From Akkermansiaceae bacterium (GTDB lineage Bacteria > Verrucomicrobiota > Verrucomicrobiia > Verrucomicrobiales > Akkermansiaceae), in the NCBI GenBank assembly GCA_023300205.1, contig JALZVD010000076.1, forward strand, positions 1 through 15,791: a stretch of 15,791 nt of DNA, read 5' to 3'. Below are positions 559 through 15,791 of the stretch, piece after piece. Below the pieces are notes generated by a model. The model did not search any database and was not told the origin of the DNA. It saw nothing but the letters and a program-made list of their open reading frames with translations. The position numbers and the translations under genes are program-made. Position 1 is the first letter of the stretch. The number at the start of each line of letters is the position of its first letter.

Positions 559-605
559 GTATTACAGCGTTTCACTCATGATATTTATACGGTAAAAAAT
601 GCCTC

Positions 606-643
606 ATCTTTTCAAAACGATGCAATTAGTGCATTTTGAAGAT
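606..643. repeat. Imperfect inverted repeat between the ExbB-like gene and the HU gene
   Basis: ATCTT-TT-CAAAA-CGA-TGCA (606-624) faces TGCA-TTTTG-AAGAT (630-643) around a five-base ATTAG loop. The arms pair apart from a two-base and a three-base bulge. No T-run follows on either strand, so it is not an obvious intrinsic terminator. Nothing else is recognisable in the 262 bases between the two genes apart from the HU terminator and the possible promoter. Confidence 0.4.
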
Positions 644-712
644 AGATCCAGCTCCTTCAAGCGAAGATGAGCTCTGCTCATTTTCTACCTAAAGTCGCCA
701 CCCCAATGAACA

Positions 713-749
713 AAAAAAAGCTCTACGCATGACTCGCGTAGAGCTTTTG
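713..749 (-). terminator. Rho-independent terminator of the HU gene
   Basis: On the minus strand AGCTCTACGC (745-736) and GCGTAGAGCT (728-719) form a perfect 10-bp stem around a seven-base loop, followed by a run of eight T residues. It lies about 30 bases after the HU stop codon. The A-run on the other side means it could also work in the plus direction. Confidence 0.85.
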
Positions 750-774
750 AGGTGTTAATTAATGTAACTTGCTA

Positions 775-1050
775 CTAGAGAGAAGCTTTGAGATTTGATG
801 AGCACTTAAAACCAACAGTCTTTGAAGCTTTAATCTTCATTGACTCACCAGTTTTAGGGTTGCGGCCCATACGAGCTGCGCGCTTCTTAACCTCGAAAGT
901 ACCAAACCCAATGAGCTGGACCTTCTTGTCTTTCTTCACGCCTTTAGCGATTGAAGTAAGTACTGCTGCTACTGCCTCTTCTGCAAGACGCTTTGTTGTC
1001 TCTTTCCCAAGAGCCTTCTGTACGGATTCTACGAGTTCTGCTTTATTCAT
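775..1050 (-). CDS. hup: HU/IHF-family DNA-binding protein
   Basis: A 91-residue protein with the normal length and layout of HU: an N-terminal helix pair (residues 1-40), then beta strands with the family signature GFGTFEVKKRAAR from residue 48 and the DNA-intercalating arm tip GRNPKTGE at 62-69. HU dimers bend and compact DNA in the nucleoid. The ATG start at 1050 gives the canonical N-terminus MNKAELVESV. It is a single-gene unit: a strong hairpin terminator follows, and the upstream 217 bases contain no other gene. A TTTACA/TGAAAA pair with 16-base spacing and a near-palindrome (1110-1123) lie upstream as possible control sites. HU versus an IHF-like paralogue cannot be settled from sequence alone; HU is the safer name. 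Confidence 0.95.
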   Translation of the reverse strand: MNKAELVESVQKALGKETTKRLAEEAVAAVLTSIAKGVKKDKKVQLIGFGTFEVKKRAARMGRNPKTGESMKIKASKTVGFKCSSNLKASL

Positions 1051-1109
1051 TGCCCTAGCATTTTCACTAAACCCGCACTAGTTGTAAAGATAAAATGAAT
1101 AAATCTTTT

Positions 1110-1123
1110 CTTACGTACATAAG
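1110..1123. promoter_or_regulatory. Near-palindrome upstream of the HU gene
   Basis: CTTACGTACATAAG is a 14-base palindrome with one mismatched pair, about 60 bases upstream of the HU start. It could be an operator for HU or for the plus-strand gene starting at 1268. No factor can be named. Confidence 0.2.
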
Positions 1124-1267
1124 CGATTTGTTCTTGCATAATGAGGAAATACTATCTAGCGATCCCTCTCTCCCCCCATATATCAGCATCCGTTTCTGTT
1201 AGATAGTCGCTATCCTCGCACTGATCAAGTTTGACATTCGTTCTACTATCAGCATAGTTTTTTTAAG

Positions 1268-2620: not shown

Positions 2621-3429
2621 AGAAATGCGTTCAACGCCTCATTCAGCGCCACACCATACTCCTCTGGCTCATCATAACGCGGAGCTAGCTCCTCCATACC
2701 ACGCAGATTTGGCAGCGCATCCGCTATACTCTCCGCAACCGGAATTGGGTGCAAGTTATCCCGAGTAGTATAAAGAACCAACGAATCATTCTCAATCTTT
2801 CCTAAATCCCCCAAAGACCCAAATGGCGCATCCTCCCACATCTTATACAGCACCGCAGTATGAGAAAAATGAGCAGGCCTCTTAAATAAACCACGGATAG
2901 ACTCCGCCACCTTTGGAACCTCAGCATACAGTGAAACATAATCCGGATGAGACAACAACTTCTGCTCAGCCACCTCCGCACCCTCATCTATAATCCATTG
3001 GCCAACATACGCAACCAGTGCCAAATGAGCAGGCTTCTTCTCCTCTAACCATGAAGGCCGTAATAAAATCAACTGGTTCACACGCTCTGGATAACGAAGA
3101 GCAATATTAAGCGCGATGCCTGACCCCATTGAGAGCCCCCCTATATTAGACTTTTCTATTCCTAAATGATCTAAAATAGCAACCACATCATCCGCACTCT
3201 GATCAAAGCTCATCACCGCACACTCATCCTCAGATACCGAGTCCCCATGCCCCAACATATCAGGAGCGATCAACATCGTATTATTTAATGCAGTCAGCGC
3301 AGACGTCGTCTGCGCCCTACCCGCTCCTAACCCATGCATAAATGCCAACGGATAACCACCCCTATCACCCACTACTTCATAAGCTATTTCCACATTACTA
3401 CCACCCCTTCTCATCTTAACAACACTCAT
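2611..3429 (-). CDS. Alpha/beta-hydrolase fold protein
   Basis: A 272-residue single-domain alpha/beta hydrolase without a signal peptide. The oxyanion-type motif FMHGLGAG is at 30-37, the nucleophile elbow GLSMGSG at 98-104 with serine S100, and the acid strand VLYTTRDN at 218-225 with D224. The usual catalytic histidine is expected about seven residues before the proline of the final motif (DEPEEY, 253-258), but that region reads ELAPRYDEPEEY and has no histidine. The closest histidines are H227 and the last two residues. The protein may therefore use another histidine or be a non-catalytic or altered family member. It starts nine bases after the Fur-family gene and is very probably co-transcribed with it. 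The substrate is unknown. Confidence 0.8.
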   Translation of the reverse strand: MSVVKMRRGGSNVEIAYEVVGDRGGYPLAFMHGLGAGRAQTTSALTALNNTMLIAPDMLGHGDSVSEDECAVMSFDQSADDVVAILDHLGIEKSNIGGLSMGSGIALNIALRYPERVNQLILLRPSWLEEKKPAHLALVAYVGQWIIDEGAEVAEQKLLSHPDYVSLYAEVPKVAESIRGLFKRPAHFSHTAVLYKMWEDAPFGSLGDLGKIENDSLVLYTTRDNLHPIPVAESIADALPNLRGMEELAPRYDEPEEYGVALNEALNAFLHH

Positions 3430-3438
3430 ATTATCTAT

Positions 3439-3948
3439 CTATTTCTTATGTATTTTCTTACTTGAAAGTCTCGCCTGTATCAAATCATGACACACACCCT
3501 TACTCCGCAAAGTCTCACAACAAGCCTCCAGACGGATAGACTGCTTCGCCGGCCGGAAACCCATTCGCCGTGTAATGCAATCATTTAGAATCTCTATGTT
3601 ATCATCCTCAAACTCCACCACCTTACCGCAGTCGATACAAATCAAATGATTATGACTAGGGGAATCCACAAAATTAGGATCATACGTCTTCTGATCTCCA
3701 CCCAGATCTATCTCATGCAGCAACCCAGCCTCCTCCAGTAAACCCAGAGTCCGGTATAAAGTAGCCCTAGAAGCAGATGAATTATTCTTCCGGATCCGGT
3801 CATATAACTCATCAGCAGTAAAATGCTCATCCTTGCTAAAAATCAAAGACACTATCTCATCTCGCTGCGGTGTCCGCCTCAGGCCTTTACGCTTAATGAA
3901 GAGATTCAGCTTATCTAAGATTTCTGCTATGATCGGATTTTCTGCCAT
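3439..3948 (-). CDS. Fur-family transcriptional regulator
   Basis: A 169-residue metal-responsive repressor of the Fur/PerR/Zur family. The N-terminal winged helix includes RRTPQRDEIVSLI (24-36) and the recognition region SSASRATLYRTLGLLEEAGLL (57-77). The dimerisation part has the metal-site block HNHLICIDCGKVVEFED, with H99, H101 and the structural-zinc pair C104/C107. C143, C144 and C153 in the tail could supply the second cysteine pair. Which metal it senses cannot be decided: Fur, Zur and PerR share these residues. It is the first gene of a two-gene unit with the alpha/beta hydrolase and is divergent from the lipoprotein gene at 4054, so the 105-base intergenic region may carry its operator. 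I could not identify a clear Fur box there. The start MAENPIIAEI gives a normal N-terminal helix. Confidence 0.9.
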   Translation of the reverse strand: MAENPIIAEILDKLNLFIKRKGLRRTPQRDEIVSLIFSKDEHFTADELYDRIRKNNSSASRATLYRTLGLLEEAGLLHEIDLGGDQKTYDPNFVDSPSHNHLICIDCGKVVEFEDDNIEILNDCITRRMGFRPAKQSIRLEACCETLRSKGVCHDLIQARLSSKKIHKK

Positions 3949-4053
3949 TCGCTATAGATTACTTATATCAACTCATCCCCATTTGGGAATAGAAATTTAC
4001 TCCAGATCCAGATTCAGCATTGGCAAGCACCCTAATAGATGCCTCAATAACAC

Positions 4054-4545
4054 ATGCTCAAAAGATTTTTCACTAGTATCTGTATCATTACCGGAATCCT
4101 CTTCGGAACCATAGGATGCTCCACAAAAAATCAAAACCTCTACGTAGATAAATTCACCCTCCGCTCCATCAAAATTGAAGACACAGACGCAGCAATGGTC
4201 AGAGGAGACCAACAAAAACGCCTCTACGGTGCCGTTTCTATCAAAGAACACCAAGAACGCCTCGGTCAATATTACCTCCTACGCTGGAATCTCCTCAACC
4301 AACCAAAAATCACCTCATGGGACCAAAAAGTCCAACTCGTCTTCCGTTACAGACAAGCATCCTCAGGTTCAGAGGTCAAAACTGTATCAAAAAATTACCC
4401 CGCCGGAACCAGAAACGGGAAATGGGAATTTAGAAACATAGGCCAGAATTACCTCAAAGGCGGTAGACTACTCTCTTGGCGAGCAGACCTCATCTACGGT
4501 GGCCAAATCATCTCCTCAAAAGAATCATACCTCTGGAGTAACTGA
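4054..4545 (+). CDS. Small lipoprotein of unknown function
   Basis: A 163-residue protein with a lipoprotein signal peptide: KR at residues 3-4, a hydrophobic core to about residue 20, and a lipobox-like TIGC with the lipidated cysteine at C22. The -3 residue is Thr rather than Leu, which is less usual. The mature part (23-163) is hydrophilic, rich in aromatic and basic residues, with alternating strand-like stretches (KVQLVFRYRQ, GGRLLSWRADLIYGG), suggesting a beta-sandwich in the periplasm. I do not recognise a named family. It is divergent from the Fur-family gene, so it could be one of its targets, but no operator is visible. The ATG at 4054 is required to include the signal peptide. Confidence 0.7.
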   Translation: MLKRFFTSICIITGILFGTIGCSTKNQNLYVDKFTLRSIKIEDTDAAMVRGDQQKRLYGAVSIKEHQERLGQYYLLRWNLLNQPKITSWDQKVQLVFRYRQASSGSEVKTVSKNYPAGTRNGKWEFRNIGQNYLKGGRLLSWRADLIYGGQIISSKESYLWSN

Positions 4546-4598
4546 CTTTTAGAAACGTTAGATCCATGAAATGCATCTGCATAGTAAATACATTTCAC

Positions 4599-4626
4599 TT
4601 GCCATTTCTCATTATGCTTTTAAAGT
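4599..4626 (+). promoter_or_regulatory. Possible sigma70-type promoter of the S8 peptidase gene
   Basis: TTGCCA (4599-4604), a 16-base spacer and TAAAGT (4621-4626) lie just upstream of the ATG at 4654. The same TTGCxA-16-TAAAGT pattern precedes the ExbB-like gene. This is motif evidence only. Confidence 0.3.
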
Positions 4627-4653
4627 AAACATCTAATAAAGACAAATGATCAC

Positions 4654-6723
4654 ATGCGAACAAACCGACTTCAGCTACCCCTCACCATTCTCCTAAATAG
4701 CTCTCTCTTACTCACCGCCAGCGAGCTAGACACCATCGGCCTCACAGACCTCCTCACCCGCGAACCAGGACTAGATGGCTCAGGCCTCAGAATCACCCAG
4801 GTCGAAGCATCCTCTAGTGCTACAATCGAACAATACCAATCTAATCCTGCCGCTGCCGCGCAGCCAGCCAGCAAATTCTCATACTTTGACAGCGATAACG
4901 TCTATCCTACAGCAGGAGCCTATGATGCGACCAAGCAATCAAATCACGCAAACAGCGTCGCAAATAACTACTTCGACCTCAACACAGGAGTCGCCACAGA
5001 TGTAAACGAAATCTATGTCTTTGATGCGAATACATTCGTCAATACCATCGTCGCCACAAGAACTAATATAAACGCCTCCGTCATTAACCAAAGCTTCGTC
5101 TTCGGCGCACAAGATCCCACAATAGATCAACTATACGACAACTACGCCGACCTCTACCAAGCACTCTTTGTCAATGGGCTAGGTAACGGAACCGCATCTA
5201 CAATCACCTCACCAGCCACATCATACAACTGTATTGCAGTAGGTAGAGAAGACCTCAGTCACAGCCCCAGTCCATCAGACGGACGCTCTAAACCAGACAT
5301 CATTGCCCCAGGAAGCGCAACAAGCTTCGCAACCCCCTTCGTCTCAGGAAGCGCCGCCATCCTCATCGAAGCTGCACTCAGCCCATTAGAACACGGCGGA
5401 GCAGCAACAGCAGCAGACGCCTCAGACATCCGTACCATCAAGGCCCTCCTCTTAAACGGCGCCGTGAAAAACACCGCATGGTCACACACAGACACCCAGC
5501 CACTAGACACTCGCCGTGGTGCCGGACTACTAAATATCAACAACTCACACCTCCAGCTCCAAGGCGGACAGCACAGCCCCACAGCATCTCAAACTAGCAC
5601 AATCGCAGCCACATACACACCATCCAGTACCCAATCAGGAAACGTTCTATCCCCAACAGGCTGGAACTTCTCCACCATCACCACTGCCGTTGTCCGCCCC
5701 AATAGAAACCCTATTAACAGCACCGATACCATAGACAACTACTACTTCGATGTCCCTTCAGGCACTGGCTCTACCCCTCTCGTCTACGACCTCACCTCCA
5801 CCCTCACCTGGCATCGCCATAACAACCAATCCAACATCAACAACCTAGACCTTATTCTCTATAACGCGAATACAGGAGCCGTGATCGAACAAAGCATTAG
5901 CTCCGTGGATAACGTAGAACACATCCACACCACAGACCTCCCAGCTGGCAGATACGTCATCCAGGTCATCAAGCGCAGAACCAACCAAGTCGCTGAATCA
6001 GAAGACTACGCACTAGCATTTAACTTCTCCATCTCCCCACCAGACGCCCCTAGCGCACTCACCGCCACCGCACTACCATTCCTTGAGATTGACCTCGCTT
6101 GGACAGATAACTCTGATGATGAACTCAACTTCGAGCTCCAGCGCAGCACCATCTCATCTAGACTATTTAACACCATCGCCACACTACCTGCTGACACCAC
6201 CACCTACACAGACACACCACCCCTAGAAAACACCACCTACCACTACCGCGTCAGAGCCTCCAATACAAACGGCGACTCATTCTACACCAACGTAGCATCC
6301 GCCACCACTCTCCCCTACACATCACTCCAAAACTGGCGCCAGACCCACTTCGCCACCTACACAGAATCCGGTAACGCCGCTAACAACGCAGACCCAGACA
6401 ATGACGGACTCACCAACCTCACAGAATACGCCCTCGGCACAGACCCAACCTCAGCCGCTAACCCAAATGGCGGCTCCGCACAGCCACAAGCCTCCATCAT
6501 CAATATCAACGGAACAGACTACCTCCAGATCACCGTCACCCGCACAGAAATAAAAACTGACATCACATACACCGTCCAAGTCTCCCCCGACCTATCAGAC
6601 AACAACTGGACAGACGCCACAGACACCCTAGAAAACACCGCCACCACCCTCCGCGTCCGTGACTCACTCCCAAGCACCAATAATGAGCTCCGCTTCATCC
6701 GGCTACGTGTAGTAGAAAATTAG
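4654..6723 (+). CDS. Secreted subtilisin-like (S8) serine peptidase with fibronectin III and C-terminal repeat module
   Basis: A 689-residue exported protein. Residues 1-23 form a short signal peptide. The S8 domain (about 36-300) shows GSGLRITQVEA (E51 where subtilisins have Asp), the catalytic-type histidine H98 in SNHANSVANNYF, the oxyanion asparagine N145 in VINQSF, and the serine S224 in ATSFATPFVSG. A beta-sandwich-like region (about 355-458) follows, then a fibronectin type III domain (462-553, with LAWTDNSDDELNFELQRS and YHYRVRASNTNG). The last module contains DPDNDGLTNLTEYALGTDP (580-598), a calcium-binding-like segment, and ends in strands finishing RFIRLRVVEN. Such C-terminal modules are common in secreted Verrucomicrobiota proteins. 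It probably acts outside the cytoplasm on proteins. The Asp-to-Glu change makes activity uncertain. The coding strand is strikingly C- and A-rich and G-poor. Confidence 0.85.
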   Translation: MRTNRLQLPLTILLNSSLLLTASELDTIGLTDLLTREPGLDGSGLRITQVEASSSATIEQYQSNPAAAAQPASKFSYFDSDNVYPTAGAYDATKQSNHANSVANNYFDLNTGVATDVNEIYVFDANTFVNTIVATRTNINASVINQSFVFGAQDPTIDQLYDNYADLYQALFVNGLGNGTASTITSPATSYNCIAVGREDLSHSPSPSDGRSKPDIIAPGSATSFATPFVSGSAAILIEAALSPLEHGGAATAADASDIRTIKALLLNGAVKNTAWSHTDTQPLDTRRGAGLLNINNSHLQLQGGQHSPTASQTSTIAATYTPSSTQSGNVLSPTGWNFSTITTAVVRPNRNPINSTDTIDNYYFDVPSGTGSTPLVYDLTSTLTWHRHNNQSNINNLDLILYNANTGAVIEQSISSVDNVEHIHTTDLPAGRYVIQVIKRRTNQVAESEDYALAFNFSISPPDAPSALTATALPFLEIDLAWTDNSDDELNFELQRSTISSRLFNTIATLPADTTTYTDTPPLENTTYHYRVRASNTNGDSFYTNVASATTLPYTSLQNWRQTHFATYTESGNAANNADPDNDGLTNLTEYALGTDPTSAANPNGGSAQPQASIININGTDYLQITVTRTEIKTDITYTVQVSPDLSDNNWTDATDTLENTATTLRVRDSLPSTNNELRFIRLRVVEN

Positions 6724-6770
6724 CCTATTTAAAGCTTCATATTCACCACCTCATCCCCTATCGTCCTTCC

Positions 6771-7133
6771 GTGCTACAAATAGTTTTCAATGAAATCAGC
6801 GCTGGAGAAATCTCCCGCCTAGACACCCTAAAGCAACTAGAAATCCTAGACGCTTTTAAAGTCACCCAAGACACGCTCCAGAACATCGACGGCGAAAGCT
6901 ACGGTAAAATAGAACGTGCTGGAACCACCCTATACCGCTTCCGCGCTGATGACTACCGTGTCTACTTCGAAGTTGTTGAGGAAAATGTCATCGTCCATCG
7001 TGTACTCAACAAAAACACCTTCTCTGACCTCCTCTTCCGTAACAAACTTCCAGTCGGAGAAGACGAAGAACTAAGTAACTCCAAGCACTTCTGGAATCTC
7101 ATCGATGAAGGCAAAAACGCAAAACGCCTATAA
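6771..7133 (+). CDS. RelE/ParE-superfamily-like protein without adjacent antitoxin
   Basis: A 120-residue protein read from a GTG start at 6771, chosen because no in-frame ATG gives the N-terminus and because MLQIVFNEIS opens with a strand as expected. The core YRFRADDYRVYF (55-66) followed by VHRVLNKNT (75-83) is the RelE/ParE-type pattern of a basic strand, a YRVxF strand and a final strand with a conserved basic residue. Family toxins cut ribosome-bound mRNA or inhibit gyrase. Here no antitoxin-sized gene lies next to it: it sits 47 bases after the S8 peptidase and 152 bases before the EIIA gene. It may be a solitary or domesticated relative with another job. Superfamily placement is fairly likely; toxicity is unproven. 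Confidence 0.6.
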   Translation: MLQIVFNEISAGEISRLDTLKQLEILDAFKVTQDTLQNIDGESYGKIERAGTTLYRFRADDYRVYFEVVEENVIVHRVLNKNTFSDLLFRNKLPVGEDEELSNSKHFWNLIDEGKNAKRL

Positions 7134-7285
7134 AATAGAGCACATAAACTATGACGAGCACACTTTGCATGTTATCATTCCATCATCCCTTAAATATTTT
7201 TCACTAGACACAAGTTCCTCTTTGTGAAATCAATGACTCCCGCACGTGACCCAGCTATTCATTTTAGCTCACCCCCGGTTATCCT

Positions 7286-7789
7286 ATGAAACTCGCCAGC
7301 CTAATCAGTAAAGAAAGAATCCTTCTCAGCATGGACTCTAATGAACGCTGGCCAGCCATTGAAGAACTCATAAACCATCTAGCGGCACGTGACCTACTAG
7401 GAGGAGAAAACTGCGAAGACATCCTAGCATCACTTCACCTCCGTGAGGAACAAACCAGCACAGGTATCGGATCAGGAGTCGCCATCCCACATGCATTCTC
7501 AGAAAAACTCACTGACGTAATCGCAGTATTCGGCAGATCAGAAACAGGCATCAACTTTGATGCCATTGACAACGCCCCCGTAAAATTCATCCTCCTCTTC
7601 ATCGTCCCCAAAAAGGACTACCACCTCCACCTTCAAGCACTCTCAGCAATCGCAAAAATGTTTAACAACTGCGAGATCCGCCAGAACCTCTCAGATGCTA
7701 CAGATGCCGCAGAAATCCTAGAAATCTTCAGCTCCACACCCTCCCGCACCCACAGTAATCACATCAGCCAACGGCTAGACTGTGATTAA
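7286..7789 (+). CDS. PTS EIIA-type (fructose/nitrogen family) phosphocarrier protein
   Basis: A 167-residue protein of the EIIA-Fru/EIIA-Ntr (PtsN) family. The diagnostic block LREEQTSTGIGSGVAIPHAF (52-71) ends with the phospho-accepting histidine H69. Later family features are APVKFILLFIVP (97-108) and the DYHLHLQALSAIAKMF helix. In PTS chains this domain receives phosphate from HPr and either passes it to a sugar-specific EIIB or works as a regulator. No EIIB, EIIC, HPr or EI gene lies nearby, which favours a regulatory PtsN-like role. The last 17 residues (THSNHISQRLDCD and neighbours) extend beyond the usual domain. The start MKLASLISKERI is typical for the family. Confidence 0.85.
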   Translation: MKLASLISKERILLSMDSNERWPAIEELINHLAARDLLGGENCEDILASLHLREEQTSTGIGSGVAIPHAFSEKLTDVIAVFGRSETGINFDAIDNAPVKFILLFIVPKKDYHLHLQALSAIAKMFNNCEIRQNLSDATDAAEILEIFSSTPSRTHSNHISQRLDCD

Positions 7790-7842
7790 TGGATACTCCC
7801 ATTCATAAACCCATGTATGCCAGACTAGATCCCATATCAGAG

Positions 7843-7871
7843 TTGACAAGGCATAGCCAAAAGACACACTA
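7843..7871 (+). promoter_or_regulatory. Possible -35 element ahead of the DUF3127 gene
   Basis: TTGACA at 7843-7848 is a perfect -35 consensus. A poor -10 candidate (ACACTA, 7866-7871) follows at 17 bases, which would give a very short or absent leader before the ATG at 7880. Only the -35 box is convincing. Confidence 0.2.
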
Positions 7872-7879
7872 CTAGCATC

Positions 7880-8272
7880 ATGTACGAAGCACAAGGCACA
7901 ATCAAAATCATCAACGACATCCAGACATTTGGATCAGGATTCACCAAGCGTGAATTTGTCATCACCACAGGAGACTCTAAATACCCTCAGGATATCAAAT
8001 TCGAGATCGTAAAAGATAAATGCGCCCTACTTGACCAGTTCGCTTCAGGTCAAACCGTCAACGTAAGCTTCGACATCCGTGGAAATGAATACAACGGCAA
8101 ATACTACGTCAACCTCAACTGCTGGAAAATCCAAGCAGGAGCAGGTGGCGGAGGAGCAGGTAATCAAGCAGCACCTGCAAATAACTCCAATGATATGCCA
8201 GACTTCTCCAACAATCAAGGCGCCGCTGAGCCATCCATCGATGACCTCCGTGGTGACGATATCCCATTTTAA
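7880..8272 (+). CDS. DUF3127 OB-fold-like protein with SSB-type acidic tail
   Basis: A 130-residue protein. Residues 1-84 match the DUF3127 pattern: MYEAQGTIKII, FTKREFVITT (21-30), YPQDIKFE (35-42), then DKCALLDQF and a VSFDIRGNEYNGKYYVNLNCWKI-type end (62-84), consistent with a small OB-fold beta barrel. A low-complexity Gly/Ala/Asn linker follows (85-118). The protein ends DDLRGDDIPF, which matches the acidic C-terminal tip of single-stranded DNA-binding protein that docks repair and replication partners. It therefore looks like an SSB-related nucleic-acid-binding protein, though nucleic-acid binding is inferred. The aldolase gene begins 35 bases downstream with no terminator between, so the two may share a transcript. 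Confidence 0.8.
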   Translation: MYEAQGTIKIINDIQTFGSGFTKREFVITTGDSKYPQDIKFEIVKDKCALLDQFASGQTVNVSFDIRGNEYNGKYYVNLNCWKIQAGAGGGGAGNQAAPANNSNDMPDFSNNQGAAEPSIDDLRGDDIPF

Positions 8273-8307
8273 TCAATAACTTAACAACTAACAACCAACA
8301 GAAAATC

Positions 8308-9336
8308 ATGCCAGTAGCAACTCCAGAACAATACGCGCAAATGCTAGACGCTGCCCAAAAAGGCGGCTACGCATTTCCTGCCATCAACATTACCTCAATC
8401 GCTACCATCAACGGCGCGCTGAAAGCATTCGCAGAATCAGGATCTGACGGCATCATACAGGTTTCCACAGGTGGCGGATCATTCGCATCAGGACTCGCAG
8501 TTGCAGACGCCGCATTCGGTGCCATCGTACTCGCGCAAGCCACTCACCAACTCGCTGAGAAATATGACATCCTCGTAGCGCTCCACACAGACCACTGTCA
8601 CCCAGACAAAGTAGACGGCTTCCTCAAGCCTCTACTACAAGCATCACGCGACCGCATCGCAGAAGGCAAAGGACCTCTCTTCCAGTCACACATGTTTGAC
8701 GGCTCAGTAGTAGACCTAGACCAGAACATGGAAATCTCAAAAGGACTCCTCAAGGAATGCGCAGAACTCAACATCATCCTCGAAGTAGAAGCAGGATGCG
8801 TAGGCGGCGAAGAAGACGGGCATGACACCTCAGACCTTCCAGCAGAAAAACTCTACACCACCACTGAAGACATGATCCAGGTCTACGAGACACTCGCCCC
8901 CATCGGCAGATTCATGTTCGCAGCCACATTCGGAAACGTCCACGGCGCATACAAGCCAGGCTCAGTCAAACTTAAGCCTACTATCCTTCGTGACGGTCAA
9001 GCAGCAGTAGTAGACAAGCACGGTGCAGCAGCACAAATGGACTTCGTTTTCCATGGTGGATCAGGATCAGACCTCGCAGACATCCGCGAGACACTCGGCT
9101 ACGGCGTCATCAAAATGAACATCGACACCGACACCCAATACGCATTCACTCGTCCTATCGTCAATCACATCTGTGAAAACATCGAATCCGTTCTCAAGAT
9201 CGACGGTGAAGTCGGCTCAAAAGGCAAGTATGACCCTCGTTCATACATCAAGAAAGCTGAGCAAGGCGTATGTGAAAGACTCAAGCTAGCCTGTGATGAC
9301 CTCCTCTCAACCGGAAAAACCATCTACAAGAAATAG
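8308..9336 (+). CDS. fba: Class II fructose-bisphosphate aldolase
   Basis: A 342-residue zinc-dependent aldolase that reversibly splits fructose 1,6-bisphosphate into dihydroxyacetone phosphate and glyceraldehyde 3-phosphate in glycolysis and gluconeogenesis. Visible active-site elements: HTDHC (93-97) with catalytic D95 and zinc ligand H96, EVEAGCVGGEEDG (159-171), TFGNVHGAYKPG (207-218) with zinc ligand H212, and the phosphate-binding FHGGSGS (248-254) with zinc ligand H249. The length and the GGEEDG and HTDHC signatures fit the type A branch, as in E. coli FbaA or actinobacterial Fba. It is complete and cytoplasmic. It follows the DUF3127 gene after 35 bases and is closed by a strong terminator. 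Confidence 0.95.
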   Translation: MPVATPEQYAQMLDAAQKGGYAFPAINITSIATINGALKAFAESGSDGIIQVSTGGGSFASGLAVADAAFGAIVLAQATHQLAEKYDILVALHTDHCHPDKVDGFLKPLLQASRDRIAEGKGPLFQSHMFDGSVVDLDQNMEISKGLLKECAELNIILEVEAGCVGGEEDGHDTSDLPAEKLYTTTEDMIQVYETLAPIGRFMFAATFGNVHGAYKPGSVKLKPTILRDGQAAVVDKHGAAAQMDFVFHGGSGSDLADIRETLGYGVIKMNIDTDTQYAFTRPIVNHICENIESVLKIDGEVGSKGKYDPRSYIKKAEQGVCERLKLACDDLLSTGKTIYKK

Positions 9337-9365
9337 TCGTAATAACTTCTAATCTCTATACACAA

Positions 9366-9400
9366 AAGCTCTCAAGGTTCGCCTTGGGAGCTTTTTATTT
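9366..9400 (+). terminator. Rho-independent terminator after the aldolase gene
   Basis: AGCTCTCAAGG (9367-9377) and CCTTGGGAGCT (9382-9392) form an 11-bp stem with one G-T wobble around a stable TTCG tetraloop, followed by a T-rich run (TTTTTATTTT). It lies about 30 bases after the aldolase stop. Confidence 0.92.
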
Positions 9401-9435
9401 TCGCCAAATCCTCACTCCCCGCCTACTCTGACCCA

Positions 9436-9744
9436 ATGATAGAAATATTCAGTGACATCAGCCCAGTAAAAGTAGGTCATTACCAAACCATACTAGAAGA
9501 GCAAGGCATCGCCACCTTTCTCAGAAACAATAACCTCTCAGCAGTAGAAGTCCCTATACCCAAATTCTACCCAGCCCTCTGCATCATGAACGATGAAGAC
9601 CACCAGAAAGCCCTAACCATCCTCCAAGACATCATCAAAAAAGAACAAACTAAAATCAGCTCCCCAGACATCAACTGCCCCAACTGTAACGAACCAAACC
9701 CAGCAACCTTCGAAACCTGCTGGTCATGCTCCTCTGAACTTTGA
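9436..9744 (+). CDS. DUF2007-type protein with C-terminal zinc ribbon
   Basis: A 102-residue protein. Residues 1-70 follow the DUF2007 (putative signal-transducing) pattern: a first strand MIEIFSDIS, a helix with LEEQGIATFLRNNN where paralogues have a conserved amphipathic turn, and a strand ALCIMNDED leading into a second helix. The C-terminal end carries two CxxC knuckles, C81/C84 and C95/C98 (CPNCNEPNP and CWSC), a zinc-ribbon layout. The biochemical role of DUF2007 is not established; structures resemble the PII/GlnB-type ferredoxin-like fold. The gene stands alone after the aldolase terminator and converges on rluE, 19 bases away, without an obvious shared terminator. Confidence 0.75.
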   Translation: MIEIFSDISPVKVGHYQTILEEQGIATFLRNNNLSAVEVPIPKFYPALCIMNDEDHQKALTILQDIIKKEQTKISSPDINCPNCNEPNPATFETCWSCSSEL

Positions 9745-9763
9745 CTGCCAAAACCCCCAGCAC

Positions 9764-10342
9764 CTAATACTTCTTCAGTGCTTCCACATCATCATCATCC
9801 AGAACTACCCACTTTCCTGGCTGTAGATCACCCAGATCATACTCCCCTATACTAGAACGTATCAGACGTAACGTAGGATAACCTATCTTAGCAGTCACCC
9901 GCCTCACTTGTCGGTTCTTACCCTCCTTCAGCCTTAGCATGATCCAAGAAGAACGCTTCTCAGACGCAGCATCCACCGCCGGCTCCCTAGCACTAAGTTT
10001 TCTAGGCTCTCCACCCATCAGCTGAGCAAAACAAGGCAACGTCGTATAACCTCGTATATCCAAACCGCCAGCAGCCACATCACGCATATCCGCAAGCGTA
10101 GGCTTCCCATCCACCTGCACCAAATACGTCCGCACATGCTGCTTATGCGGCCGCAGTAAATCAGCCTCTAACTGCTTCTCATCCGTGATCAATAACAAAC
10201 CCTCAGAATCCATATCCAGCCTACCCACAGGAGTAAACTCTGGCGGCAGATCATACGCCGCTAATGTCTTCTGCCCAGGATGATCCGGATTTTCGTTGAA
10301 CTGACTCAGAACCCCGTAAGGCTTATTAAATGCAATAATCAT
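9764..10342 (-). CDS. rluE: 23S rRNA pseudouridine synthase, RluE-like
   Basis: A 192-residue RsuA/RluE-family pseudouridine synthase. It opens with FNKPYGVLSQF (5-15). The catalytic motif GRLDMDSEGLLLITDE (40-55) holds the nucleophilic aspartate D43, and the end of the domain has the family block EGKNRQVRRVTAKIGYPTLRL. There is no N-terminal S4 domain, which together with the short length matches RluE rather than RluB, RluF or RsuA. E. coli RluE makes pseudouridine 2457 in 23S rRNA; the site here is inferred. Its start overlaps the stop of the upstream 338-aa gene by four bases, implying translational coupling. Confidence 0.9.
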   Translation of the reverse strand: MIIAFNKPYGVLSQFNENPDHPGQKTLAAYDLPPEFTPVGRLDMDSEGLLLITDEKQLEADLLRPHKQHVRTYLVQVDGKPTLADMRDVAAGGLDIRGYTTLPCFAQLMGGEPRKLSAREPAVDAASEKRSSWIMLRLKEGKNRQVRRVTAKIGYPTLRLIRSSIGEYDLGDLQPGKWVVLDDDDVEALKKY

Positions 10343-11355
10343 AATTTTAACATGTAGTAGATATGCTTCTCAGTAAGTTCACCCATCGTCGAGCACTCCG
10401 TGAAAATATCTGTCTTGTGAATTTGGTTTAGCTCACCCGCTAAGCGAGTAATATGTTTCTCAGGAGCTAGCTTCTCCTTCCTCATTACCCGTAGCAGACC
10501 CCTCAGCCTTATAGACTCTGAAGATGCTCGGTGAGCCATCTGCGAGCGCTCCTCCTCAGCATACTGACGGATCGTCCGGCGGTTTAAACTCTTAAAACTC
10601 AAACGGGTAATATTTCTATTAGAGCTAAAATTATAAGAATGATAAATCTTACACTTCCCCTCATAAGACTGTTGATCAAAGTCAATAGGTCGTACCCTAT
10701 ACTGCACCTCCTCGAAGTCTGGCGTGATATCCACCACATAGTTCACAGAGCGCATGTCACCCAATAACCTGATAAAACAACGCTCGTTAAACTTCACAAA
10801 CTCCTTAGCAATCCGCACCTCATTAATCCGTTTACTATGCAGATAATCACCCAGAAATACATCCCCAGGAAGACCCGCTACGTGATTCTCAATAAGCGTG
10901 TTACCCTGCACAATATAATTCATCCGGTTCGGTGAAAGTATATGCTCAAGCTCCAACCCATAGATACGTGAAGCATCTGCTACCTTCACATAATAATAAT
11001 CAGAATTATCGTTAAACTGATTCGTAATCTTGATTCTAAACGGACGAGAATTTCCAAACTCACCCAGATCTATACGGTCCACTATCAAATGCTCATGATA
11101 GCTACTATCCCCTCCTATCTTCAAAGTTGCATACACCTTCGTTAGCTTCACTCTCAGCTCCTCCATCACCTCAGGCGGATAGAACACCGTTAGCCAAAGC
11201 GTCTCATCACCACTCGGATCCTCATAAGGAATCGCCCCAATGAATCCATTCAGATCATCATACACCAGCGGCATATTGGTCTGTCTCCCATAATGATAAA
11301 GATAATGCCTCAACGAAGCAGTAATTTCATAAGGAATTTTCTTTTGAGATATCAT
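10339..11355 (-). CDS. Unidentified 338-aa protein, possibly with a divergent kinase fold
   Basis: I do not recognise a named family. No signal peptide or membrane segment is visible. The order of conserved-looking residues suggests a kinase/aminoglycoside-phosphotransferase-like fold: a strand with lysine (YYVKVAD, K124), a helix with glutamate (GLELEHIL, E135/E137), a hinge-like NTLIENHVAGLPGD (152-165), a catalytic-loop-like LGDMRSVN (198-205) with the D-x4-N spacing of D200 and N205, and about 20 residues later IDFD (224-227) as the metal-binding aspartate motif. The first residue of the HxD loop is Leu rather than His. The C-terminal 100 residues are helical and basic (SLNRRTIRQYAEEERSQMAH). 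It overlaps rluE by four bases, so a link to rRNA or translation is possible but unproven. The ATG at 11355 is the first in-frame start. Confidence 0.6.
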   Translation of the reverse strand: MISQKKIPYEITASLRHYLYHYGRQTNMPLVYDDLNGFIGAIPYEDPSGDETLWLTVFYPPEVMEELRVKLTKVYATLKIGGDSSYHEHLIVDRIDLGEFGNSRPFRIKITNQFNDNSDYYYVKVADASRIYGLELEHILSPNRMNYIVQGNTLIENHVAGLPGDVFLGDYLHSKRINEVRIAKEFVKFNERCFIRLLGDMRSVNYVVDITPDFEEVQYRVRPIDFDQQSYEGKCKIYHSYNFSSNRNITRLSFKSLNRRTIRQYAEEERSQMAHRASSESIRLRGLLRVMRKEKLAPEKHITRLAGELNQIHKTDIFTECSTMGELTEKHIYYMLKL

Positions 11356-11419
11356 TCAGCTCACATTAGCCTGTTATGTTTCAGAGCGCCATCCAATTTC
11401 GAATTATCCATCGATAAAT

Positions 11420-12310
11420 CTAAACCTTAGCCAGCTTCTTATTCGCCTTCTTGATCACACTAGATGAACCCTTTGTATCTTCCGCCGCTCTGAGAAATTC
11501 AGCATAGTTCTCCGCCACCGCGGCATACTCATCCGCCTCTTCCTTAAGGTGGCCCTCATAGATCGTCAGCGACTTCTCAAAATACTCTCTAGCCTGCTTA
11601 CTCTCTCCTACCTGAGCCAGAGCTAATGCCAGATTAGAATAAGACTGTGCGGTATCAGGATGATTCTTCCCCATACTCTCCAGCCTGCTCTCCAATGCCA
11701 TCGTATGCATCTCACGTGCCTGCTCATCATACCCAGACTTCAGATACAGAGCACCCACATTATTAAATAAAATCGCCGTCTTCTCATGGTTTTTACCATA
11801 AGCATTATGGCAAATCTCCAGACCCTTCAAGAATAACGTCTCAGCCGTATCCATATTACCTAAGCTCCTATAAATGAAACCTAGATTATTACAAATATCA
11901 GCCACCTCTTCCAGCTGCGGAGGATCCAGCCGCTCATACATCTCTATCGCACGCTCATAAAAAAGTATCGCCTCCTCATCATTCTCCACAAAATCATACA
12001 ACACACCAATACTTCCACTAATTCGCGCTAACATATCCGTACACTCAGCCCTACCATTCAGCATCTCTAACGCCTCCAGATAAATCACCCGTGAATCTTC
12101 TAAATAGCTCTGCTGCCTCAATAAATCTCCTTTGATCTCAAGAGTAGCCGCTAAGCATACAATATCATTAAATTCTCCAGTGTTCGATAGACGTGCCTTC
12201 TCTACAGCGGCATCAGCTGAGCGCATCGCTTCATCCCATCTCCCAGCATTCGCTAGCTCTAACACGCGCTCTGAGAGCATCTCTAATAAATTGGCTGTTC
12301 CTGAATCCAT
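11420..12310 (-). CDS. Tetratricopeptide-repeat protein (kinesin-light-chain-like repeats)
   Basis: A 296-residue cytoplasmic, all-helical protein without a signal peptide. At least five to six TPR units are visible, several of the 42-residue kinesin-light-chain type: for example NNLGFIYRSLGNMDTAETLF followed by KGLEICHNAYG, then NNVGALYLKSGYDEQAREMH with MALESRLESMGKNHPDTA, then SNLALALAQVGESKQAREYF with KSLTIYEGHL. Such repeats are protein-interaction scaffolds, and no catalytic domain is attached. The last 30 residues are Lys-rich and probably unstructured. It lies 64 bases upstream of the 338-aa gene in the same direction and could be in its operon. The partner is unknown. Confidence 0.85.
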   Translation of the reverse strand: MDSGTANLLEMLSERVLELANAGRWDEAMRSADAAVEKARLSNTGEFNDIVCLAATLEIKGDLLRQQSYLEDSRVIYLEALEMLNGRAECTDMLARISGSIGVLYDFVENDEEAILFYERAIEMYERLDPPQLEEVADICNNLGFIYRSLGNMDTAETLFLKGLEICHNAYGKNHEKTAILFNNVGALYLKSGYDEQAREMHTMALESRLESMGKNHPDTAQSYSNLALALAQVGESKQAREYFEKSLTIYEGHLKEEADEYAAVAENYAEFLRAAEDTKGSSSVIKKANKKLAKV

Positions 12311-12361
12311 AATTATTTAACTTCTAATAGTCATGTTTTCTAAACTAATCGCAGGAAAATG

Positions 12362-12389
12362 AAAGGCATTTTTAAAAAAACATTCCTTT
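12362..12389 (-). terminator. Possible weak terminator after recO
   Basis: AAAGG (12362-12366) pairs with CCTTT (12385-12389), with partly complementary A/T-rich sequence between them and T-rich flanks. It lies just after the recO stop and before the TPR gene. The stem is interrupted and A/T-rich, so strength is doubtful. Confidence 0.3.
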
Positions 12390-12402
12390 ATTTTAAAAAA
12401 CT

Positions 12403-12936
12403 TCACTCTCGAAATAACTCTTCACAAGCCGTTCTATTTTTCGGTAATCCACCAAACGCCCGTCTTAGACACAAATGCGGTTGGCTTTTCCCATCCCACA
12501 CACCTAACAAAATACTCAGCTCCTTCTCAAAATGAACCACCGCTCTCCACTCCGCAGGCCTCTCACTCAGATACGCATAAGCCCTAACAAGAAGCGCATA
12601 CACCTCATCATCCACCTCCCCTCCCTCCATCACATACTCCAGTAACGTCGCAAAATATCCAGCAACCATCGTATTCTTATACCCCTTTCGGATACCCTCC
12701 CCATACTCACTCACCACCAGCTCCTTCAATGTCCCAAGCTCACTCTTCGCACTATCTACCCAGGAAAACTCAGCAGTATAAAAAAGATCTAACTTCCCTG
12801 CAAACGCACTCTTCGGCCTCCGCGCACCCTTCGCAACAGTCTTCACCAGACCCACACCCTCCACGCACCAAGTCACTATCAGACTCGTCTCAGTCAGTTT
12901 AGTAAGTCTCAGAATAATGCCATACCCAGTCCTCAT
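12403..12936 (-). CDS. recO: DNA repair protein RecO (short form)
   Basis: A 177-residue RecO-like protein. The N-terminal OB-fold portion is clear: GYGIILRLTKLTETSLIVTW (4-23), then the loop KTVAKGARRPKSAFAGKLD, typical of RecO (KGxR..KS.f...L), and the ELGTLKELV strand. The helical part follows with GYFATLLEYVMEGGEVDDEVY and HFEKELSILLGV. RecO helps load RecA on SSB-coated gaps and anneals SSB-covered strands in the RecFOR pathway. At 177 residues it is well short of the usual ~240, and the zinc-finger cysteines and the rest of the helical domain are largely missing. The reading frame ends cleanly in LFRE and stop, so this is probably a lineage-typical short form rather than a frameshift. 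It starts five bases after the methyltransferase stop. Confidence 0.85.
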   Translation of the reverse strand: MRTGYGIILRLTKLTETSLIVTWCVEGVGLVKTVAKGARRPKSAFAGKLDLFYTAEFSWVDSAKSELGTLKELVVSEYGEGIRKGYKNTMVAGYFATLLEYVMEGGEVDDEVYALLVRAYAYLSERPAEWRAVVHFEKELSILLGVWDGKSQPHLCLRRAFGGLPKNRTACEELFRE

Positions 12937-12941
12937 ACACC

Positions 12942-14168
12942 CTATCTTGAAATCATCACTATCCGGTTCGTATTCGTCCCCTTAGACTGATTATCCACTC
13001 CCCAGCAATTCGCCGTCTTCGTAAATTCCTGCGCATTAATCAGCACCCCATGCACACACAACCCCGCATCCAAAGCCGCCCTTATAACCAACTCCTCCAA
13101 CATCACCTTTGACTTCTTCACCTCCCCCACCTCAAACGCGATCACCCCATCACTCACCAACAAACGCCCCAACTCCCTAAAAACCTCAGTCATCTTCCCC
13201 ACCCACAAATCCTCAGACTTCAACTGAGAAATCGGCAACTCCGCAGAATCAATCCCATTAAACCAACACCGCAACCAATTATCCGCCCTATAATCCACCA
13301 CATCCAGAAACGGCGGTGACGTCACAACCAGCTTCACACTCCCACTCGCTATCTCATCCGTACCCTCCGCCTGACTCGTCGTCATCAACGGCGCACTCCT
13401 CTCCAGCCTCTCCCTATCAGAATCAGTCAGCCTACTAAGCAGCTGCTTAGACTTCTTCAAAATGATCGCCCTCACATCCTTCACCACCGGTACCTGATCA
13501 CGCTTCTCATTGATCATCCGCTGTCGCTCCGCTGTCACCGCCTGATTTGGCGGCATCGTATACACAGAAAAGAACCCCGGAGAATGACCAGTCAGCCTAT
13601 TCGTAGCCAACATTCTCACCCATCGGTCTACATCATCAAGCTCACCACTCGCCTCACGCTCCATGAAATAACAACGCAGCGCACTAATCTCACTCAGCGT
13701 CTCCCCATGGTAAAATGCCAACAACTCAGCATCCTCACCCCCCCTAGACTCAGCAGTCGCACTCAGAGAAATCTCCCCTAAGCGCACCGCCACCTCGTCC
13801 TGACTCGGTGGCGACAGCCGCGGCATACAAAGCACCTTAGACAACGGATTAATATCATTACCAGCCACCCTCCTCCCCAGTAGAGCAGACTCCACTAACG
13901 TAGTCCCTCTTCCCATAAAAGGATCATAAACCACATCCCCCTCAGAAGTCAGCCTCTCCAAAAAAAACCTCGGCAACTGAGGCTTAAAACACGCCCGGTA
14001 AGACACCTCATGTAGCGAATGAGCCGCACGTTGCTTAGACGTCCAGAACTCGTTCACATAAAAAGCCACATCCTGCCCACAAATCTCCTTATGCTCAACC
14101 AATGTCCGCTCGCCAAAATCAGCAAACCCCTCAACCTCAGCAAAAAATCTATCCAGCTTAAGCCGCAT
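12942..14168 (-). CDS. SAM-dependent DNA modification methyltransferase (N4/N6 type)
   Basis: A 408-residue methyltransferase when started at the ATG at 14168. An earlier in-frame ATG at 14237 would overlap terC by 80 bases and add an unlikely basic tail. The chosen start overlaps terC by only 11 bases and has AAAGG four bases upstream. Motif I is DPFMGRGTTLVES (82-94), then GNDINP (103-108) for cofactor binding, and motif IV is TSPPF (283-287), the SPP[YF] form usual in N4-cytosine enzymes. A long insert lies between them and includes TGHSPGFFSVYTMPPNQ near 193-209. No restriction endonuclease gene is adjacent, so it is an orphan methylase; a Trm11-like RNA methylase is an alternative. It sits between terC and recO in a tight operon. 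Confidence 0.8.
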   Translation of the reverse strand: MRLKLDRFFAEVEGFADFGERTLVEHKEICGQDVAFYVNEFWTSKQRAAHSLHEVSYRACFKPQLPRFFLERLTSEGDVVYDPFMGRGTTLVESALLGRRVAGNDINPLSKVLCMPRLSPPSQDEVAVRLGEISLSATAESRGGEDAELLAFYHGETLSEISALRCYFMEREASGELDDVDRWVRMLATNRLTGHSPGFFSVYTMPPNQAVTAERQRMINEKRDQVPVVKDVRAIILKKSKQLLSRLTDSDRERLERSAPLMTTSQAEGTDEIASGSVKLVVTSPPFLDVVDYRADNWLRCWFNGIDSAELPISQLKSEDLWVGKMTEVFRELGRLLVSDGVIAFEVGEVKKSKVMLEELVIRAALDAGLCVHGVLINAQEFTKTANCWGVDNQSKGTNTNRIVMISR

Positions 14169-15030
14169 TACCTTTAGCTTCCGCTTCAGCTCTAGCCCTC
14201 TCAGCCAACAACTTCTTCTGATACCGCGTCTGAACAATGTCCGTGATCACCAACACTCCGATCACAAAGTAAAACGTCGTCTTCGTCATCACCTGGATCT
14301 CCTCACCAAACAACTTCATATGCCCCAAATGCGCACCCTCAGTCAGCAACATAATACCAACTACAAACAAAATAAACAAACCCAGAACCTCATACATCCG
14401 GTTCTTCTGTAAGAAATCAGAAACCTTATCAGCCAACCAGATCATCAAGCCACCAGACACAAAGATCGCCACCACCATCACCCACATGATGTACTGCAAG
14501 TTACCAGCCGCATCCTTATACTGAGCCAGAGCCATCGCAGATAAAATAGAATCAAAAGAGAAAATAACATTCATCATCACAATCATCGCTATCACAGATC
14601 CCGCAGACTTCTTCTTATTATCCACCGCATGACCATGCTCAATATGCATCATATGCAGCACCTCCTTAGTCGCCGTATAGAGAATAAACACACCACCAAA
14701 CAACACAATCAATGAATGACCATTAAACGACCCTGAAAACCAATCCCCAGTCGCCGAGAACAACGGCTTCTGAAACTGCGCAATCAAATGCACCAACGTG
14801 AACAACAAAATCACACGTAATATAATCGCAATACCTATACCCAACTTCCGCACCTTTGCCTGGTCCTTCTCCGGCGCACGCTTAGACTCCAGTGAAATAT
14901 ACAACAAATTATCAAACCCAAGAACAGTCTGAAGAATCATCAACATAAACAACGTCCCAATCGCTGAAATTAGAGTCGGCTCACCCATCGCTGTCGAAGT
15001 ACTAAGTAAAGTTTGGTAGATCATTTCCAT
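14158..15030 (-). CDS. TerC-family integral membrane protein
   Basis: A 290-residue polytopic protein with about seven hydrophobic segments (roughly residues 18-38, 64-84, 105-122, 144-168, 179-200, 212-230, 251-267). TerC-family marks are GFDNLLYISL (38-47) with a membrane aspartate D40, the YTATKEVLHMMH stretch after the third segment, and SFDSILSAMALAQ (158-170) with a second membrane aspartate D160. Relatives (TerC, Alx, YkoY, YceF) are implicated in manganese export and metalation of exported proteins, and in tellurite resistance. No yybP-ykoY riboswitch pattern is seen upstream. The C-terminus is a charged cytoplasmic tail rich in Ala, Glu, Lys and Arg. It is the first gene of the terC - methyltransferase - recO unit. 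The ATG at 15030 or the second Met (15024) could be used. Confidence 0.9.
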   Translation of the reverse strand: MEMIYQTLLSTSTAMGEPTLISAIGTLFMLMILQTVLGFDNLLYISLESKRAPEKDQAKVRKLGIGIAIILRVILLFTLVHLIAQFQKPLFSATGDWFSGSFNGHSLIVLFGGVFILYTATKEVLHMMHIEHGHAVDNKKKSAGSVIAMIVMMNVIFSFDSILSAMALAQYKDAAGNLQYIMWVMVVAIFVSGGLMIWLADKVSDFLQKNRMYEVLGLFILFVVGIMLLTEGAHLGHMKLFGEEIQVMTKTTFYFVIGVLVITDIVQTRYQKKLLAERARAEAEAKGNAA

Positions 15031-15048
15031 GCACGCCTTATGCCGTGC
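15031..15048 (-). promoter_or_regulatory. Small hairpin directly before the TerC start codon
   Basis: On the minus strand GCACG (15048-15044) and CGTGC (15035-15031) form a five-bp GC-rich stem around GCATAAGG, ending at the base before the ATG. The only Shine-Dalgarno-like bases (AAGG) are in the loop and partly in the stem, so it could modulate translation. It could be chance. Confidence 0.3.
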
Positions 15049-15090
15049 AATGACTCATTGATCAATAAAAAATCTTACCCCCTTCCCACC

Positions 15091-15126
15091 AAAAATGAAA
15101 ACCCCTGCTGAAAATATCCCAGCAAG
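15091..15126 (-). terminator. Probable terminator after the HMA lipoprotein gene
   Basis: On the minus strand CTTGCTG (15126-15120) pairs with CAGCAGG (15110-15104) in a seven-bp stem with one wobble and a nine-base loop. T-rich sequence follows (TTTTCATTTTT), interrupted by GG and C. It lies about 35 bases after the stop at 15161 and before terC. Confidence 0.5.
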
Positions 15127-15160
15127 AGCCACAATCCCTAAAGTTCCTTAAACAAAAAAA

Positions 15161-15502
15161 CTACTTCACCGTCGCATTAAATCCATCACCAGCACCCTGC
15201 ACAGCATTGATCAACTGCGCATCCCTAACCCGGCTCCTATCCACCACAACAACAGCGGACGTCATACCAACAGTCGCTGAGACCACCCCATCCACTCCAG
15301 AAAGTGCAGACCGCACCATCTTAGGACAAGCATACCTTCACGTAAGACCAGTCAGCTCCAATGACACAGACTCCATCTTCCCATCCTTAGCAACCTCCAC
15401 CCTATTAGCCACAGCATTCGCCCCCGGAGCACAAGACAACAACCCCACCGAAGACACAACCGCCACACTACACATCGTTAAATAAATAAATCGATTCATC
15501 AT
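15161..15502 (-). CDS. Candidate selenoprotein: HMA-domain lipoprotein with in-frame TGA (Sec55)
   Basis: Reading from the ATG at 15502 to the TAG at 15161 gives 113 codons with a single internal TGA at 15340-15338 (codon 55). Residues 1-24 are a lipoprotein signal peptide with lipobox LLSC (lipidated C24). Residues about 45-113 form an HMA metal-binding domain: VSLELTGLT, then the TGA, then RYACPKMVRSALSGVDGV, an AVVVVD strand, and the typical end LINAVQGAGDGFNATVK. HMA domains normally have GMTCxxC; here the TGA takes the first Cys position and C59 the second, with three instead of two residues between. A SECIS-like hairpin follows at the expected distance, so I infer selenocysteine and a surface-anchored metal (Hg/Cu-type) or redox role. 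The alternative is a pseudogene with a nonsense mutation. A second ATG at 15499 is equally usable. Confidence 0.6.
15301..15319 (-). promoter_or_regulatory. Candidate bacterial SECIS hairpin
   Basis: On the minus strand GTGC (15316-15313) pairs with GCAC (15307-15304) around the loop GGTCT (15312-15308). A G-T wobble, one T-T mismatch and an A-T pair extend the stem to 15319/15301. The loop begins at nucleotide 26 after the in-frame TGA and starts with GG. Bacterial SECIS elements need a hairpin just after the UGA with the apical loop roughly 16-37 nt downstream and a G among the first two loop bases, and this one meets that rule. The stem is short, so it is suggestive rather than proof. Confidence 0.5.
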
Positions 15503-15657
15503 ATTACATTCTATAGTTTACTCTCAGGCAATATCACCCAAGAAAAATCCAAACTAGCACAGCTACACCCTATCACTAGAGAATTTCTACTAGATAAAAA
15601 ACTAAAATGATTTACATTCAATCAGTACGATAAAAAACACTCAACAAAACACAAACC

Positions 15658-15791
15658 ATGAATCCACAAAACTACATCCCTAACCCATGCCATGAAAACT
15701 GGGAAAACATGACCGGCGACCAGCAAAAAAAATTCTGTGAAACATGCTCCTGCACCGTCCACAACCTCGCCGGCATGAACCATCAACAAAT
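15658..15791 (+). CDS. Cys-containing protein of unknown function (5' part, runs off window)
   Basis: An ATG at 15658 opens a frame of 44 codons that continues past the window. The visible N-terminus has the pattern PCHENWENMTGDQQKKFC, then ETCSCTVHNLAGM. Cysteines are at C11, C27, C30 and C32, with Trp15 and two Met-containing helices. This resembles an N-terminal module found in Bacteroidota and Verrucomicrobiota proteins of the form C..NW..M...G.FC..C...V.DLT.M, presumably a small zinc or metal knuckle. The role of the full protein cannot be told. It is divergent from the HMA lipoprotein gene across 155 bases, which hold no other gene and no promoter I trust. Confidence 0.65.
   Translation, partial: MNPQNYIPNPCHENWENMTGDQQKKFCETCSCTVHNLAGMNHQQ

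Follow-up and report, generated by a model that had tools for sequence, protein, structure and literature searches.

Heavy-metal-associated (HMA) domains such as those of MerP, CopZ and PacS (PF00403) carry a pair of cysteines spaced C-x2-C and no selenocysteine (Sec, U in motifs). Selenium-containing relatives have also been catalogued. The family of model NF041115 appears in Table 1 of a 2026 review as 'putative mercuric reductase', with a UxxU motif and two Sec residues (PMC13188914), and the cation-transporting ATPase E1-E2 selenoprotein carries Sec in UxxC (PMC13188914, PMC2398784). An entry named 'Mercuric transport protein MerP' stands in Table 2 of the Global Ocean Sampling selenoproteome, where it has two sequences, zero Cys homologues and no motif (PMC2398784); the 2026 review does not use this name in its main text (PMC13188914). 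Here, we describe a gene in a 15,791-nucleotide stretch of DNA from an Akkermansiaceae bacterium (assembly GCA_023300205.1, contig JALZVD010000076.1, positions 1 to 15,791; hereafter the window) that very probably encodes a selenoprotein with an exported HMA domain, in which Sec and Cys are arranged as U-x3-C.

The gene lies on the minus strand (15161..15502) and, as judged from the frame and the alignment of homologues, comprises 113 codons from an ATG at 15502 or 15499 to a TAG at 15163-15161. Its first part encodes a putative signal peptide (15431..15502, minus) in which, by eye, a hydrophobic stretch precedes the lipobox LLSC; Cys24 (15433-15431) is the putative lipidation site. Another 27 residues lead to GLT-TGA-RYA-C-PKMV, which is followed by an HMA-like remainder and the TAG. 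The TGA is codon 55 (15338..15340, minus) and the only one in the frame 15502-15161(-); its putative partner, Cys59 (15326..15328, minus), is separated from it by three residues. An earlier note on this sequence had proposed a frame intact from a lipoprotein signal to an HMA domain, with a single TGA at the first metal-binding cysteine, that of GMTC, and one extra residue in the motif. Both points held up: the 113 codons contain one TGA, and GLT-U-RYA-C-PKMV occupies the place of the HMA metal motif.

The HMA domain (15164..15382, minus) was delimited by profile and predicted structure. Pfam HMA matched residues 52-105 of the window protein with an E value of 6.8e-4 and a score of 20.4, against a gathering threshold of 24.8, and matched 23 of 23 aligned family members with a best E value of 2e-12. 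The assignment is therefore borderline for the single window sequence but not for the family. The structure is predicted to be a beta-alpha-beta-beta-alpha-beta ferredoxin-like fold (block pLDDT, the predicted local distance difference test score, 91-97), and the best structural neighbours of this predicted fold are copper and mercury binding domains. The U-x3-C motif is one residue longer than C-x2-C, so the window protein departs from the PF00403 motif.

Conservation of the TGA codon

With the read-through protein as query, 30 protein-level matches were found in 19 of 142 related genomes, the window's own included. Exactly one TGA was present in 28 of these matches, a set that includes the window and derives from 26 genes. 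The other two are double-HMA proteins with ordinary CxxC motifs and no TGA, one of which comes from the same genome as the window. When 23 single-domain genes, including the window's, were aligned (alignment A1), the TGA fell in one shared column in every row, and G52, U55, C59, V63, A66, L67, G72, V73 and A100 were invariant. Cys59 was likewise invariant in alignment A5 (64 rows), whose non-window rows were picked by a pattern requiring this Cys. Alignment A1 and the 27 homology-found HMA sites used for the hairpin (A4) were compiled without loci L043, L044 and L048 and without two TGAs in the linker of L047; L029 duplicates L047 and L039 duplicates L046, and L047 and L046 each give two sites in A4. 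A single-query search of this kind misses members, as shown by the L122 gene in genome G508, which resembles the match-less genome G048.

We also scanned the DNA of genome_contigs, in which 84,980 species are represented by a single genome each, using a pattern that fixes the hairpin core described below and the following Cys and takes TGN as the codon. The scan returned 95 stretches, 80 of which were fetched. These contained 86 sites, 85 with TGA, one with TGT and none with TGC or TGG. Since only sites with the hairpin can match, the scan favours Sec forms, and 85 of 86 should not be taken as an unbiased Sec-to-Cys ratio. The sites read as HMA domains, nearly all of them behind a signal-peptide-like start. 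Exceptions noted were L109, L112 and L113 (all three cut by a locus end), L118 (odd, with a long tree branch) and L131, which is apparently frameshifted behind the motif. A crude pattern found a lipobox-type motif in 47 of 83 related genes and not in the other 36; this count covers 83 genes of the 86 sites, and A5 combines the window with 63 of them. Some genomes are shared between the 80 loci and the 142-genome set.

Beyond the TGA, differences at the three codon positions were 0.38/0.39/0.69, a coding pattern, compared to 0.72/0.71/0.74 after the real stop. The search for homologues with TGA, TGC or TGT at this codon showed that TGA is kept in place and that Cys forms exist, and signs of decay in relatives, which would have spoken for a dying gene, were confined to L131 among the 86 sites. 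The earlier note had reasoned that a random nonsense mutation would be unlikely to hit this particular codon; conservation now shows selection on the codon directly.

The hairpin and the selenocysteine machinery

All 27 sites of A4 have the sequence GUGC-[AG]G[UG]NN-GCAC behind the TGA. The check for a bacterial selenocysteine insertion sequence (bSECIS) that the earlier note had suggested found a bSECIS-like hairpin with a conserved core, whose first two loop bases are [AG]G in 27 of 27. In the window, this bSECIS-like hairpin (15300..15320, minus) has five contiguous base pairs (15317-15313 with 15307-15303) and the apical loop GGUCU (15312-15308). The loop lies 25 or 26 nucleotides from the TGA across the family and 25 in the window, a distance that falls within the known geometry of bacterial SECIS elements.

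The stem overlaps codons V63 to L67. V63 is encoded by GTG and A66 by GCA in 23 of 23 genes, codons that the family elsewhere uses for 19% of Val and 27% of Ala, respectively, while V73 and A100, although just as invariant, are each encoded by four different codons. Third positions differed in 21% of comparisons within hairpin codons versus 69% further downstream. The hairpin freezes the synonymous sites of its own codons and not those of other invariant codons. Pairing was seen in 83% of stem cells, versus 25-59% when the partner was slid, and the covariation score was reached by 4 of 500 shuffles.

The assembly to which the window belongs (2.47 Mb in 388 contigs, 83% complete) contains a full selB over the cut-off and a Sec-type selD (locus L017, G000:C171) with TGA in GGU-ASK, in agreement with UxxK, the motif listed for Sec-type SelD (PMC13188914). 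A hairpin with the loop AGUUU lies about 33 nucleotides behind the TGA of this selD. Among 11 genus-mates, selA was matched in 11, selB in 9 (E<=1e-60) and tRNA-Sec in 9. All 19 genomes with family matches have a selA or selB match (selA 17, selB 18), compared to 46 of the 123 others. Of the genomes behind the 80 loci of the DNA scan, 50 were examined for selB, and 45 of these have it over the cut-off. A tRNA-Sec search of the 142 relatives gave 79 passing the family cut-off versus 60 for selA, with many matches of 45-50 bits falling in selA-less genomes; this search, judged by score alone, is unclean and is therefore taken as support only.

Proposed function and alternative explanations

We consider it close to certain that the UGA at codon 55 is decoded as Sec, and highly likely that the product has an exported HMA fold. 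By the route established for Sec insertion in bacteria, SelB carrying Sec-tRNA would bind the hairpin and place selenocysteine at the UGA. The product would then be exported and lipid-anchored via Cys24, and its HMA domain would present Sec55 and Cys59 in the metal-binding loop. It may act as a periplasmic or surface binder or carrier of a soft metal, Cu(I) or Hg(II), with a selenolate that would hold the metal tighter than the usual CxxC. Whether metal binding rather than redox chemistry is its main job is, in our judgement, an evenly balanced question. A broader picture is put forward more tentatively: a near-purely selenium-dependent exported metal-carrier family, built on a stand-alone HMA domain, that retains a selenolate-thiolate U-x3-C site in its Sec form across three or more phyla, has its SECIS in the codons of the first helix, includes tandem duplicates and two-Sec-HMA proteins, one of them (L147) perhaps with four Sec, and possibly serves as a periplasmic copper or mercury trap.

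Several results weigh against the proposal of a selenium-dependent metal binder and should be considered alongside it. The covariation of the hairpin is weak: 45 of 500 shuffles reached its count of pairs changed on both sides, no variation occurs in the four core pairs, and among 26 distinct rows the two outermost pairs fail to form in 14 and 16. Taken alone, the window's own hairpin is also weak (5 bp, codon-shuffle P 0.058), and 31 of the 728 TGA triplets in the window have a hairpin as good. The earlier note's call for Sec machinery was answered in part: selB and a Sec-type selD are present, but neither a selA match nor a tRNA-Sec over the cut-off was found in the 83% complete assembly, where 6 of the 8 loci from the tRNA-Sec search were checked with ARAGORN and proved to be ordinary tRNAs. 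In relatives, two genus-mate tRNA matches (49.6 and 50.8 bits) barely exceed those of selA-less genomes (up to 50.5), genome G065 (96% complete) has no selA match, and in the poribacterial genome G519, where a TGA gene is present, selB went unmatched at 1e-40. Across 387 genomes of the phylum, the Sec form was confirmed only in the window's genome, with the TGA rows G151 and G236 left out. Finally, no metal genes recur beside the family and no neighbour points to metal.

This last result also favours the alternative that survives best, which competes on function only and which we regard as less likely: the protein is a selenoprotein, with the Sec-Cys pair as a redox centre for selenenylsulfide, thiol-disulfide or peroxide chemistry. 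U-x3-C is one residue off the C-x2-C metal motif, and the 2026 review deems most uncharacterised bacterial selenoproteins likely redox proteins (PMC13188914). However, the predicted fold is that of an HMA domain and not thioredoxin-like, its best structural neighbours bind copper or mercury, and redox-enzyme models were matched only through the N-terminal HMA part of mercury(II) reductase or weakly, by an MsrB/A fusion (2 of 23) and SodC (1 of 23).

Far less probable is a selenium-sensing switch, in which the UGA and hairpin would yield the full HMA protein with selenium and a short lipopeptide without it, regulation being what is selected. The 5' half alone does encode an intact signal peptide, and a premature stop in the absence of selenium follows from Sec decoding generally, but none of the evidence gives the short form a role. 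Conservation at the protein level extends through the downstream HMA half, so the full product matters.

That the TGA is a real stop, in a pseudogene, through a sequencing error or at the end of a 54-residue truncated protein, is scarcely credible: gene callers stop there and selA and tRNA-Sec were not seen in the assembly, but genes from three phyla share TGA at this codon, the coding pattern continues and the synonymous sites of the hairpin are frozen. Pseudogene and sequencing error were rejected, as both are contradicted by TGA conservation, the downstream coding pattern and synonymous constraint. Equally hard to credit is a selenium-independent decoding of the UGA as a different amino acid (Trp), a reading to which database proteins P0002-P0004 lend a W at the site, given that under table 11 no other long frame of the window is interrupted, that selB and a Sec-type selD are present, and that the single differing codon in the scan was TGT (Cys), though the pattern allowed TGG.

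Distribution, related loci and known systems

The 80 fetched loci include 51 from Verrucomicrobiota, 19 from Planctomycetota and 2 from Poribacteria, and a pattern search found one copy in the window's own genome. One member with TGA, L133, lies on a scaffold of Rubritalea profundi SAORIC-165. In the phylum sample, 96 of 387 genomes matched; beyond the window's, four rows had TGA and two had TAA. The TGA rows L100 and L106 are ordinary CxxC domains with the TGA located elsewhere. No relative was found among viral contigs, and nothing came up when the window protein by itself served as query. The distribution of the family is patchy, and the work adds a selenoprotein family that recurs in this manner in Verrucomicrobiota and Planctomycetota.

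In most selenoprotein families of the ocean survey, Cys forms far outnumber Sec forms (PMC2398784), whereas Sec made up 85 of 86 sites in the present scan, whose pattern leans towards Sec. Here, C-x3-C forms with Cys in place of Sec were found in the database proteins P0005, P0009 and P0010 and at locus L080, which is without the hairpin core. L125 (JADHOC010000027.1, Planctomycetota) has TGT where three near-identical genes carry TGA and keeps the hairpin; its genome (G511) still has selB. The TGT reflects either a recent change from Sec to Cys or a discrepancy in the assembly. By eye, P0005 and L125 also have a lipobox. In a tree of low resolution, from which only coarse statements can be drawn because it rests on few columns, P0005, P0009 and P0010 are nested within the planctomycete Sec clade, a placement that suggests, but does not show, a Sec-to-Cys change.

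The protein databases show the family partly in pieces. From a collection of 5.8 billion proteins, 27 of 60 profile hits were read: eight start just behind the TGA, one ends at it, three (P0002-P0004) carry W at the Sec site, and the remainder are Cys proteins, either C-x3-C or ordinary. The W probably comes from gene calling under code 4. With the Cys form L125 as query there were 8 hits, and all five that were read end exactly at ...LTGMT. P0063, a metagenome protein 96% identical to L125 over the 5' half, ends at the TGA position. Database proteins cut at the UGA bear out the expectation that gene callers would split such a gene. Gene calling thus conceals the family, and one rule (hairpin plus U-x3-C) could mend its annotation.

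Directly downstream of the selenoprotein gene, on the same strand, lies a gene for a TerC-family membrane protein (14158-15030, minus), and the downstream neighbours in the window are this gene and a DNA methylase. The contig ends 289 bases upstream, where a divergent gene (15658-15789, plus) runs off the window with the start of a small Cys-rich protein, MNPQNYIPNPCHENWENMTGDQQKKFCETCSCTVHNLAG... Neighbours at the 80 loci, judged by eye with shadow frames also present, formed no cluster beyond local synteny. At the planctomycete-type loci L125, L140, L150 and L167, one frame resembles an efflux membrane-fusion protein by eye.

Other loci carry more than one HMA-like domain. Two Sec-HMA sites are fused in L132/L046 and stand in separate neighbouring genes in L156, L128, L146 and L175. 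The read-through frame of L047/L147 (G104:C31; JAHDID010000005.1) encodes a signal peptide, a linker with two further TGAs and two Sec-HMA domains, and is possibly a four-Sec protein. Each linker TGA is followed by a hairpin with an AGUCU loop; codon shuffling gave P 0.22 for the first and 0.018 for the second, so that only the second is notable. L043 (G008:C1) is a divergent protein with two HMA-like halves, each of which contains a TGA (GGGU-GAAKKV and GLGGU-ADTNEKARV) but lacks the Cys behind it. L044 (G000:C57) and L048 (G011:C48), from the same genus, are exported-looking double-HMA CxxC paralogues with Cys-rich N-termini and no TGA.

The window protein passes no NCBIfam cut-off. The nearest model is NF041115 (UxxU_metal_bind, metal-binding (seleno)protein), which scored 43.8 versus 95 bits. 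Like the window protein it represents a selenoprotein, and its alignment covers the HMA part, but it has two Sec residues two apart in 74 positions, whereas the window protein has one Sec and one Cys three apart and is predicted to be exported. NF045683, a MerT/CopZ fusion-like heavy metal transport selenoprotein, shares a CopZ/MerP-like part but is a transporter fusion of 235 positions, on which the window protein scores 25.6 versus a cut-off of 375. The ATPase E1-E2 selenoprotein is a large P-type ATPase with UxxC, in contrast to a stand-alone, probably exported protein with UxxxC. Among Cys proteins, the cut-offs of MerP TIGR02052 (29.6 versus 92.55) and CopZ NF047957 (36.8 versus 85) were not reached by the window protein; of six other proteins tested, the sole pass was the double-HMA protein L147, on CopZ NF047957 (101.8). 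The C-x3-C homologues P0005, P0009, P0010, L080 and L125 share the spacing and differ in having Cys instead of Sec. Judged by its name and table entry alone, the MerP of the ocean survey could be an early sighting of the same or a similar family.

The author of the earlier note knew of no description of this lipoprotein form. That stands for the exported UxxxC form, which has no counterpart in Table 1 of the 2026 inventory of 119 selenoprotein families, where the UxxU and UxxC relatives are listed (PMC13188914). It does not stand for selenium in such proteins generally, which was already known from UxxU, P-type ATPase and MerP/MerT-like proteins. The small, easily handled protein makes it testable whether a selenolate serves metal binding rather than catalysis. 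Against a background in which Sec in HMA-like proteins is established, what appears to be new is its exported UxxxC form.
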